DNA of 64,000 bases, from positions 1-64,000 of the forward strand of contig NZ_KB905948.1 of NCBI RefSeq assembly GCF_000381125.1, in the 5' to 3' direction. The stretch is from Caldimonas manganoxidans ATCC BAA-369. Its GTDB lineage: Bacteria; Pseudomonadota; Gammaproteobacteria; Burkholderiales; Burkholderiaceae_C. Positions within the stretch are counted from its first letter, which is position 1; the number at the start of each line of letters is the position of its first letter. The translations under genes and the position numbers were made by a program. Below the pieces are notes generated by a model. The model saw nothing but the letters and a program-made list of their open reading frames with translations, did not search any database and had not been told where the DNA came from. This document shows, piece by piece, positions 25,293-28,583 of this stretch.

Positions 25293-25598
25293 TGCAACTA
25301 TCTCCTAGGTTGAACAAGAGGTCTCGGTCGCCCGTTGTTGTGCAGGACCGGGCTGTCCGAGCCAACCTCCTCAGCGGAAGTTGGCGCTATTGCACCAGAG
25401 GGTCGCGGCGGCGGCCAGACTTGCGCGCAGAAAAGACCGGGGTTTGTTGTCTATGCGCAACAGGCCAGGCCGCCGAGGCCGGCCCCGCGGCGGCGGATGC
25501 CCCACCGAGACGCAGACCCGCGTGCCCCCCGAGGGGGCTGCCACGCCGGCCGGCCAGGCTCTATGCTTGGGGCTTGGTCGCTGCGAGAGTGTGTTGCG
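25293..25598. other. Divergent intergenic region between porin and coq7
   Basis: This 306-bp region holds the 5' leaders of the porin (minus) and coq7 (plus). I see the porin ribosome site AGGAGA at about 25301-25306, and a GC-rich middle. There is no convincing promoter pair, small gene or riboswitch. Confidence 0.5.
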
Positions 25599-26252
25599 AT
25601 GAATGCCCGCCCCCCCTTGTCTGCCCTGGATACCCTGCTCAGCGCCGCCGATGGCGCCTTGCGCACCGTGTTCGGCGCGCACCGTGCGGCCCGCCCCTGC
25701 CCGCAGCCGACGCCGCCCGCGCCGCAGGCTCCCTTGAGCGAGCCCGAGCGCCGGCTGTCGGGCGCGCTGATGCGCGTCAATCATGTGGGCGAGGTCTGCG
25801 CCCAGGCGCTGTACACCGCCCAGGCGCTGGCCACGCGCGATCCGGCGCTGCGGGCCCATTTCGAGGCCGCCGCCCGGGAGGAGGTGGATCACCTGGCTTG
25901 GACCGAGCAGCGTCTGGCCGAGCTGGGCGACCGCACGAGCTGGCTCAACCCGCTGTGGTACGCCGGCGCCTTCGGCATCGGCTGGGTGGCCGGGCGGCTG
26001 GCCGGCGACCGGGTCAGCCTGGGGTTCGTGGTGGAGACCGAGCGCCAAGTGGAACAGCACCTGCAAAGCCACCTGGAGCGTCTGCCGGCACAGGATGCCT
26101 CCTCACGCGCCATCGTGCAGCAGATGAAGGAGGACGAGGTCCGTCATGCCTTGGATGCCGAAGCCGCCGGTGCCGTGCCGCTGCCTGCGCCGGTGCAGTG
26201 GCTGATGCGCGCGGCCGCCAAGGTGATGACCACGACCGCCCATCGTGTCTGA
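25599..26252 (+). CDS. coq7: Coq7-type 3-demethoxyubiquinol 3-hydroxylase
   Basis: A di-iron monooxygenase performing the last ring hydroxylation of ubiquinone biosynthesis, acting at the inner membrane. The 217-residue product has paired ferritin-like metal motifs: [40 protein letters not shown] and [10 protein letters not shown] supply the Glu/His ligands. The start ATG 25599 ([10 protein letters not shown]) is chosen because upstream in-frame sequence is unrelated. It converges on osmC with a 3-bp gap. Coq7 in place of UbiF is common in beta-proteobacteria. Confidence 0.94.
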
Positions 26253-26255
26253 GCG

Positions 26256-26678
26256 TCAGACCTCGACGATCTCGTAGCTGGTGGTGATCTCGGCCGTCTT
26301 GCCCAGCATGATGGTGGCCGAGCAGTATTTGTCGTGCGACAGCTCGATGGCGCGCCGCACGGCCGTCTCGGGCAGACCCTTGCCAGTCACCACGAAGTGC
26401 ATCTGGATGCGGGTGAAGACCTTGGGGTCGGTGGGGGCACGCTCGGCGCTGAGCTTGACTTGGCAGCCGCGCACGTCGTGGCGTCCGCGCTTGAGGATGA
26501 GCACCACGTCATAGGCCGTGCAGCCGCCCGCACCGGCCAGCAGGGTTTCCATCGGGCGCGGGGCCAGGTTGCGCCCGCCGCCCTCGGGGGCGCCGTCCAT
26601 GTTCAGCAAGTGTCCGCTGCCCGTTTCGGCCGAAAACGCCATGCCGTGTGCCGGCATCCAGTGGATGGTGCATTCCAT
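26256..26678 (-). CDS. OsmC family protein
   Basis: A 140-residue member of the OsmC/Ohr superfamily, closest to the YhfA-like branch. It has NMDGAPEGGGRNLAPRPME, then GAGGCTAYDVVLILKRGR with the first conserved cysteine, and HDKYCSATIML with the second. These cysteines form the peroxidatic pair in characterised OsmC/Ohr enzymes that reduce organic hydroperoxides; other members are unassigned. The ATG at 26678 is preferred over TTG 26687. Its upstream region is shared with a divergent sRNA-like element. Confidence 0.87.
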   Translation of the reverse strand: MECTIHWMPAHGMAFSAETGSGHLLNMDGAPEGGGRNLAPRPMETLLAGAGGCTAYDVVLILKRGRHDVRGCQVKLSAERAPTDPKVFTRIQMHFVVTGKGLPETAVRRAIELSHDKYCSATIMLGKTAEITTSYEIVEV

Positions 26679-26762
26679 GTCACGCAATCTTCAGGGTGGA
26701 AAGCCCCTCATTGTGGGCGCTGCGCGGTCGGCGTGCAGCCTGGAGGTCTGGAAAACGGCCTC

Positions 26763-26777
26763 TCACGCAAACCGTGA
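26763..26777. promoter_or_regulatory. Dyad upstream of the sRNA-like promoter
   Basis: TCACG-CAAAC-CGTGA is a perfect 5-bp inverted repeat with a 5-nt centre. It lies just ahead of the putative -35 at 26786 and between the divergent osmC and sRNA/ilvA units. It could be a regulator site; the half-sites are short, so chance is possible. Confidence 0.3.
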
Positions 26778-26785
26778 AAAATTTG

Positions 26786-26814
26786 TTGCGGCGCATCAAG
26801 GAATGGCGTTAAAC
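26786..26814 (+). promoter_or_regulatory. Putative promoter of the sRNA-like element / ilvA leader
   Basis: TTGCGG (26786-26791) and TTAAAC (26809-26814) are spaced 17 nt apart, giving a predicted start near 26821. The match is moderate. It is supported by the terminator 100 nt downstream, which needs a nearby promoter because the upstream gene is on the other strand. Confidence 0.4.
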
Positions 26815-26820
26815 TTCCGT

Positions 26821-26919
26821 TCATGTGATGCCTGCACTGTGCAGCATTGCAACGTTTGTCTCCTCCACCCTCCTCCTTTGGTGGATTCGGCCCAAGGCTT
26901 CACCGCCTTGGGCCTTTTT
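26821..26919 (+). ncRNA. Putative small RNA with anti-Shine-Dalgarno loop
   Basis: About 100 nt between a predicted promoter and a strong intrinsic terminator, with no coding gene in it. The first hairpin has stem TCCACC (26864-26869) and GGTGGA (26880-26885) presenting the loop CTCCTCCTTT, complementary to ribosome binding sites. The second is the terminator stem at 26889-26914. This two-hairpin plan with a C/U-rich anti-SD loop resembles beta-proteobacterial small RNAs, including, as I recall, a family described as toxic when overexpressed. Alternatively it is a transcribed leader or attenuator of ilvA, whose start is 90 nt further on. Expression is not proven. Confidence 0.5.
26889..26919 (+). 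terminator. Intrinsic terminator upstream of ilvA
   Basis: GGCCCAAGGC (26889-26898), loop TTCACC, GCCTTGGGCC (26905-26914), then five T residues. This is a perfect 10-bp stem and a textbook terminator. It ends the sRNA-like transcript, or may attenuate transcription into ilvA. Confidence 0.88.
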
Positions 26920-27008
26920 CTTGGTACAGCAGCCCCCTGCACCGGCTGCTGCACTGCAAAACGAGGGCGGGGCTCGCGTATATTCGACGGCTTCGCAGGA
27001 GGAGCCCC

Positions 27009-28583
<1,575 letters not shown>

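Follow-up and report, generated by a model that had tools for sequence, protein, structure and literature searches.

A small RNA gene of the RF02278 family beside coq7 and osmC in Caldimonas manganoxidans, with a predicted PhaR operator at its promoter

The window analysed here is a 64,000-nucleotide stretch of the genome of Caldimonas manganoxidans ATCC BAA-369 (contig NZ_KB905948.1, positions 1 to 64,000), in which a small RNA (sRNA) gene lies between a divergent OsmC-family gene and ilvA. The locus is made up as follows.

25446..26252, + strand: coq7, conserved, two genes upstream, exact start uncertain (NF033656, 310 bits, cut-off 180)
26256..26687, - strand: OsmC-family gene, the conserved, divergent upstream neighbour (NF008009, 149 bits, cut-off 138)
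26783..26799, + strand: palindromic operator TTGTTGCGGCGCATCAA, a predicted PhaR site over the -35 box (from motif match and conservation)
26786..26815, + strand: predicted promoter, with -35 TTGCGG at 26786-26791, an 18-nt spacer and -10 TAAACT at 26810-26815
~26822..26921, + strand: predicted sRNA transcript of about 100 nt (from promoter comparison and terminator)
26825..26850, + strand: 5' hairpin SL1, a recurrent structure of variable sequence and a predicted part of the transcript
26857..26921, + strand: RF02278 core, comprising anti-SD strand, anti-SD hairpin and terminator (65.5 bits, covariation)
26857..26863, + strand: single-stranded anti-SD 1, UGUCUCC, unpaired in the predicted fold
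26864..26885, + strand: hairpin SL2, with the anti-SD 2 loop CUCCUCCUUU (DNA CTCCTCCTTT) at 26870-26879
26889..26919, + strand: intrinsic terminator with a covarying stem
27009..28583, + strand: ilvA, the downstream neighbour, outside the sRNA unit (TIGR01124, 834 bits, cut-off 411)

The original prediction had described an sRNA-like element with an exposed anti-Shine-Dalgarno (anti-SD) loop, and the pieces it named (a dyad, a hairpin and its loop, a terminator stem, a T-run and the start of IlvA) are all present where it placed them. Its central claim, an independent gene of about 100 nt of the beta-proteobacterial anti-SD kind, is borne out by a family match, covariation and a comparison of promoters. 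Comparison with Rfam returned RF02278 (Betaproteobacteria toxic sRNA) at 26857-26921 (+), scoring 65.5 bits (cut-off 50); the whole model (1-64) is aligned, with an E value of 5.9e-11 over the window, and this is the one sRNA match in the window at the curated cut-offs of Rfam 15. The score, together with anti-SD and terminator hairpins that carry compensatory changes, places the RNA in this family. NmsRb (RF02877) also aligns over its full length at 26821-26919, with 35.7 bits against a covariance-model cut-off of 52, which leaves the RNA outside the NmsR family, and there is a weak, sub-threshold covariance-model match to ar14 (22.4 bits).

From 5' to 3', the predicted transcript comprises the 5' hairpin, the UGUCUCC strand, the hairpin with the CUCCUCCUUU loop and the terminator, whose stem at 26889-26914 has 10 pairs (8 GC) and is followed by a T-run at 26915-26919. 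The region 26825-26921 folds into three hairpins at -42.2 kcal/mol (z -5.97), and none of 200 shuffled sequences folded equally well. An alignment of 59 linked copies, chosen out of 94 distinct ones, shows double-sided changes in 12 of 16 pairs (2 of 5 in the anti-SD stem and 10 of 11 in the terminator), with 95.0% of paired cells able to pair compared with 28-54% in slid controls, while TGTCTCCTC, in the region of the anti-SD strand, is invariant in all 59. The predicted leader folds into a hairpin in most relatives: those of 81 loci, including that of the window, have a median z of -2.05 (below -1 in 60 of 81), and their sequence is free to vary. Exposure of the anti-SD strand is only partly borne out by folding: with a fixed 40 nt of upstream sequence, UGUCUCC has a mean unpaired probability of at least 0.7 in just 53 of 94 loci and at least six of its seven bases unpaired in the best fold in 49 of 94, and a stricter count of eight unpaired bases out of nine, two of which belong to the stem, holds in 2 of 81 loci.

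RF02278 matches occur in 104 of 120 sampled genomes of the host's family (82 over the cut-off) and in 128 of 200 genomes of its order (75 over the cut-off). Among 111 copies examined in the family, 95 share a single locus, marked by coq7, osmC and ilvA, six lie just 3' of a phasin gene and ten elsewhere; a further 25 copies, of 40.9 bits or less, were left out, so unlinked and phasin-side copies are under-represented in these counts. All three neighbours keep the window's order at 74 of the 95 linked loci, the others being partial. An exact search found the 28-nt core unchanged in named Bordetella, Achromobacter, Cupriavidus, Ralstonia and Pandoraea, among others, in at least 119 stretches, of which 80 were analysed, some ending soon after the core; osmC or coq7 lies beside the RNA in most of these 80 listed loci.

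Two Bordetella genomospecies carry the exact 28-mer, and in both loci coq7 and osmC adjoin the identical core. S17 of B. pertussis also adjoins coq7 (PMC11722255). Sequence and neighbourhood therefore make it very probable that the window gene is orthologous to Bordetella S17 and newly extends an established family. We infer that the 28-mer corresponds to the conserved 27-nt stretch published for S17 and that the gene is orthologous to NcS27 of Burkholderia cenocepacia, whose neighbours the available text of PMC5688073 gives by locus tag alone. The likeness to S17 extends to the two anti-SD sites and to a short form, S17S, which RNase E releases from the long form by a cut close to where the core shared with the window begins; the S17 leader, at 123 nt, is longer than the one predicted here (PMC11722255). 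A reporter test showed direct repression of one target by S17S, and in most of the candidate targets the region around the start codon matches the single-stranded sites of S17S (PMC11722255). NcS27/BdhR1 and the double-hairpin RNAs of B. cenocepacia share with the window RNA the core hairpin, the anti-SD strand and the terminator, and the 5' part of the 92-nt NcS27 is cut off, which is also a predicted possibility for the window RNA (PMC5688073). The CU-rich parts of NcS27 are predicted to cover ribosome sites; its overexpression slows growth, antisense to its CU-rich part speeds growth, and NcS27, ncS03 and ncS05 are up in glucose medium, biofilm and starvation (PMC5688073). Four such RNAs, 93-115 nt long, are known from Herbaspirillum, with the core starting at nt 25-48, offsets that resemble the predicted 35-nt leader of the window RNA (PMC7011215). 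NmsRA/NmsRB (RcoF) of Neisseria likewise form three stem-loops, with a UC-rich SL1-SL2 strand and a UC-rich SL2 loop as anti-SD elements, but are tandem genes whose expression is tied to RelA (PMC5362039).

The promoter, which the original prediction had called plausible, stands on comparison with relatives, which also puts the transcription start near 26822; a generic sigma-70 scan detects no promoter here. The terminator and the suspicion of transcriptional regulation are both upheld, the latter by a conserved operator at the promoter. The element proposed to be regulatory, the dyad TCACGCAAACCGTGA at 26763-26777, has been dropped in that role: in a genus alignment judged by eye it is not conserved, and the conserved palindrome is the next one, at 26783-26799, which overlaps the -35 box where the dyad precedes it. 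This palindrome has no mismatch to the PhaR-regulon motif YTKNTGCRNYGCANMAR, published for Ralstonia eutropha PhaR as deduced from its phaP1 and phaP3 sites; PhaR represses phaP1 there, from sites that adjoin the -35 and -10 boxes (PMC12849132). In the genus alignment, palindrome and -10 box are kept in nine of ten loci, the tenth being a second copy within one genome, and when the upstream regions are stacked the palindrome lies over the -35 box in nearly all linked copies. Counted strictly (exact nine-base centre, at most three mismatches in 17, within 220 nt), the operator precedes the RNA at 87 of the 93 linked family loci that remain once two of the 95 are set aside for short upstream sequence. 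The reversed motif occurs at none of the 93; of 1860 dinucleotide shuffles 3.1% contain the motif, as do 2 of 92 stretches taken nearby at osmC. The best -10 box begins 25-27 nt after the motif start in 83 of the 87 loci, in a search over offsets 22-30 that favours, without forcing, such near-fixed spacing. On this basis 26783-26799 looks like a binding site for PhaR, a repressor that senses the storage granules of the bioplastic PHB, and with such a switch at its promoter the amount of the RNA is probably set by the carbon-storage state of the cell.

The same palindrome is found at phasin genes. In 18 genes from 16 genomes, mostly chosen among those with an sRNA operator, a PhaR-type palindrome lies within the 300 nt searched before 17, in 16 of them twice at a distance of 55-60 nt, compared with 1 of 18 for the reversed motif. 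The right half is GCAGCA or GCAACA in 75 of the 87 family sRNA operators and mostly likewise in the family's phasin sites, and in Bordetella, Achromobacter and Pandoraea the half GCACAA or GCACCA is usual at both sRNA and phasin genes, with exceptions, among the loci listed. The half-sites preferred by a lineage thus tend to agree between its sRNA and phasin promoters, again with exceptions. In the host genome, 77 matches of a related pattern compare with 21 for its reverse; sites before gene starts include those of phaP, phaZ (617 bits to TIGR01849; site 54 bp upstream), kup and a ferredoxin-NADP reductase-like gene, and most of the other sites looked at fall inside genes.

The host itself has phaR (TIGR01848, 154.4 bits, cut-off 109.45, contig C43), as do 79 of 80 family genomes checked, the exception being 55% complete. 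The six family loci without the motif are all in genomes with phaR, so the family offers no contrast in phaR. Across the order, 80 RNA-bearing genomes were compared (72 over the cut-off outside the family sample and eight below it, five of these from one family), 55 of which have phaR. The motif is present in 38 of these 55 and in 1 of the 25 without phaR, a difference whose Fisher p of 1.9e-8 is overstated because the genomes are related. The lone genome with the motif and without phaR is 85% complete, and both its sister genomes in the sample have phaR. The result is similar for genomes over the cut-off alone (37 of 53 vs 1 of 19), when extra copies are included (40 of 63 vs 1 of 25, with the reversed motif in 0 of 88) and when the count is confined to loci linked to osmC or coq7 (32 of 44 vs 1 of 5, p 0.034). 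Taken by family majority, 12 families have both phaR and motif, seven have phaR without the motif, nine have neither and none has the motif without phaR. In the exact-core set, 76 of the 80 loci listed have enough upstream sequence for the count, and 63 of them carry the motif (reversed motif 0 of 76), a figure more safely put at 60 of 76 since three weak Ralstonia matches look misplaced and, by position, spurious; phaR is present in all 47 genomes of this set that were checked, among the matches listed.

The strict motif is absent in 17 of the 55 order genomes with phaR. Among the loci listed, it is missing from six of seven in Cupriavidus and four of four in Ralstonia, in genomes that have phaR, so PhaR control, if real, has been lost or changed where PhaR is best studied. 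Eight Cupriavidus and Ralstonia copies (L251, L256, L282, L293, L311, L275, L278, L284) share another upstream element, around ATTTCG(C/T)AGTGCAAATT in most, in place of the PhaR-type site. The single Burkholderia locus examined, of B. singularis, also lacks a strict site though its genome has phaR, and the text of PMC5688073, as far as available, mentions no PhaR site for NcS27/BdhR1; the published induction in glucose medium and biofilm is therefore not to be credited to a PhaR site. A different palindrome, TATTAGANNATNCTNAT, encloses the -10 box in 19 of 25 genomes without phaR. It recurs in 1 of the 55 genomes that have the gene and at none of the 111 copies in the family sample, the pattern having been drawn from the same sequences in which it was counted (L173, L184, L189, L206, L210, L216, L219, L221, L229, L230, L233-L235).

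The interpretation that we regard as probable is that of a trans-acting anti-SD sRNA of the RF02278 (S17/NcS27) type, repressed by PhaR and released by PHB granules, which puts a brake on the use of carbon and amino acids. Family membership, covarying structure, the invariant anti-SD strand and the conserved locus and operator can be read in the DNA itself; the steps that would connect them are as follows. PhaR, bound to the palindrome that covers the -35 box, would repress the sRNA promoter. PHB granules, as they form, would titrate PhaR away from the operator, and the sRNA would then be made together with the phasin mRNA. The UGUCUCC strand and the CUCCUCCUUU loop may pair with mRNAs for transport and catabolism at their ribosome-binding sites and so shut off translation, with the result that uptake and catabolism would be damped while carbon is stored; it is through this block during storage that the RNA would act as a brake. 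A comparable circuit is known from Sinorhizobium meliloti, where the sRNA MmgR (alpha-r8) is likewise tied to PHB and carries a promoter dyad that PhaR (AniA) binds and represses (PMC12542648, PMC8401924). The two RNAs belong to different bacterial classes and different RNA families, and the comparison made here is one of circuits.

The palindrome might instead serve some other regulator with a TTGCRNYGCAA-type site, the RNA being a standard RF02278 sRNA and PHB uninvolved. We judge this unlikely, while giving it real weight, as PhaR binding at the palindrome is a prediction from the motif and the site is missing from most of the Cupriavidus and Ralstonia loci listed, in genomes that have phaR. 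It also draws on the strict 15-mer TCTTGCRNYGCACMA, scanned in ten chosen genomes that all have a site at the RNA: 11 of its 20 matches lie at sRNA promoters, every genome having one or more of these, and no match coincides with a phasin detected with the one query protein used; the phasin sites of these lineages are other variants of the PhaR motif. Such a regulator would, however, have to share its motif with 17 of 18 phasin genes, track the presence of phaR across the order and happen to recognise a sequence with zero mismatches to the published PhaR motif.

Two further readings appear very improbable to us. RF02278 owes its name to the toxicity of cloned copies in E. coli, where growth inhibition has been reported for other members (PMC5688073, PMC4603805), and a toxic RNA of a toxin-antitoxin or selfish module might be suspected; yet one chromosomal locus keeps 95 of 111 copies, there is no plasmid match, and overexpressed S17S slows E. 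coli only modestly, on entry into stationary phase (PMC11722255). A plasmid-borne element had been considered and was dropped, a search of plasmids having given no match to the sRNA at E 0.001. The other reading, that the RNA is a leader or attenuator whose terminator governs read-through into ilvA, develops a possibility raised in the original prediction and could appeal to the T-run ending about 90 nt before the ilvA start and to an 8-nt match between the anti-SD and the host's own ilvA ribosome site. This complementarity is not conserved: the mean anti-SD match is 4.8 nt for ilvA (88 loci), compared with 4.0 for coq7 (81) and 5.3 for osmC (91), the last raised by a few misplaced starts. Linkage to ilvA is frequent in the host's family and rarely detected elsewhere among the loci listed. 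Even within the family, ilvA is not found within 1.5-2 kb downstream in 7 of 95 linked loci and is inverted in one, and the distance to the aligned part of ilvA runs from 36 to 1169 nt; other lineages keep the RNA with ilvA seldom detected downstream (2 of the 80 exact-core loci listed, some stretches ending soon after the core). Given the variable linkage and the unconserved match, we reject an ilvA attenuator. As an addition to an established family the window RNA holds up well; its interpretation through ilvA fails.

A search for further copies in the host genome, as the original prediction had suggested, found one, of 39 bits and thus below the cut-off (L002:1501-1561, minus strand, contig C3), which begins 95 nt past the stop of a phasin gene on the same strand and has no PhaR-type site in the 220 nt upstream. 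In eleven distinct loci (the others being L098, L100, L105, L108, L111, L386, L392, L393, L394 and L398), TGTCTCCT lies 17-97 nt past a phasin stop and ahead of a predicted hairpin and terminator, and it is present at 6 of the 18 phasin genes of the promoter comparison. These copies score 31-48 bits or not at all against RF02278, all under the cut-off, so the model covers this sub-class poorly. The phasin mRNA probably terminates in the phasin-side copy, which would then come under the same PhaR promoters. This suggests an extension of the PhaR-repressed brake that we hold to be possible, with more doubt than confidence, namely a PHB-driven brake of two RNAs: release of PhaR would induce both the osmC-linked sRNA and a phasin gene whose 3' UTR is a second anti-SD double hairpin, perhaps freed by RNase E as S17S is, while lineages without phaR would use another regulator with a TATTAG-CTAAT operator and further siblings would depend on sigma-54. 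Were it true, the phasin mRNA would be messenger and regulator at once.

The wiring of an RF02278 sRNA to PhaR is, as far as we searched, the new part. We found no link between PhaR or phasins and RF02278 in the main texts of the literature searched (among them PMC5688073, PMC11722255, PMC10987360, PMC7011215 and PMC4603805), and an earlier description is possible; PMC5760752, in the text available, has one phasin-like gene in an expression table and no RF02278. RF02278 RNAs are widespread, yet their triggers are unnamed in this literature, and the PhaR operator would supply both a candidate regulator and a signal. The authors of the S17 study postulate an unidentified repressor of the S17 promoter (PMC11722255), for which the PhaR operator in two Bordetella genomospecies offers a candidate. 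More generally, the predicted wiring would tie carbon storage to broad control of translation, in parallel with the alpha-proteobacterial PhaR-MmgR circuit.

Several smaller observations were made on individual copies. The host's own phasin ribosome site CCACCAAAGGAG (L389), before the phasin start, is perfectly complementary over 12 nt to the loop and stem of the sRNA (z -4.9); in the other 17 phasin genes the match is 5-8 nt and not conserved, so this is a lead for the host genome only. Six of the ten unlinked copies (L073, L079, L083, L087, L092, L096), outside the coq7/osmC locus, have a promoter of the sigma-54 type (TGGCACG-N4-CTGC) that begins 36-42 nt upstream of the core, compared with none of the 95 linked copies; an RNA made from it would begin at about the core and have no leader. 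The largest numbers of RF02278 copies (9, 8 and 8) are found in three genomes (G126, G174, G295), all of one family of the order. The core pattern matched ten viral contigs, one of which has a copy over the cut-off (L423:21-81, minus strand, 52.4 bits); a tRNA gene lies about 570 nt away, and the site may be the flank of a prophage. In Pigmentiphaga humi (L375, L380) the sRNA occurs as a tandem pair 433 bp apart, each with a PhaR-type site, an arrangement that may be compared with the NmsRs of Neisseria.
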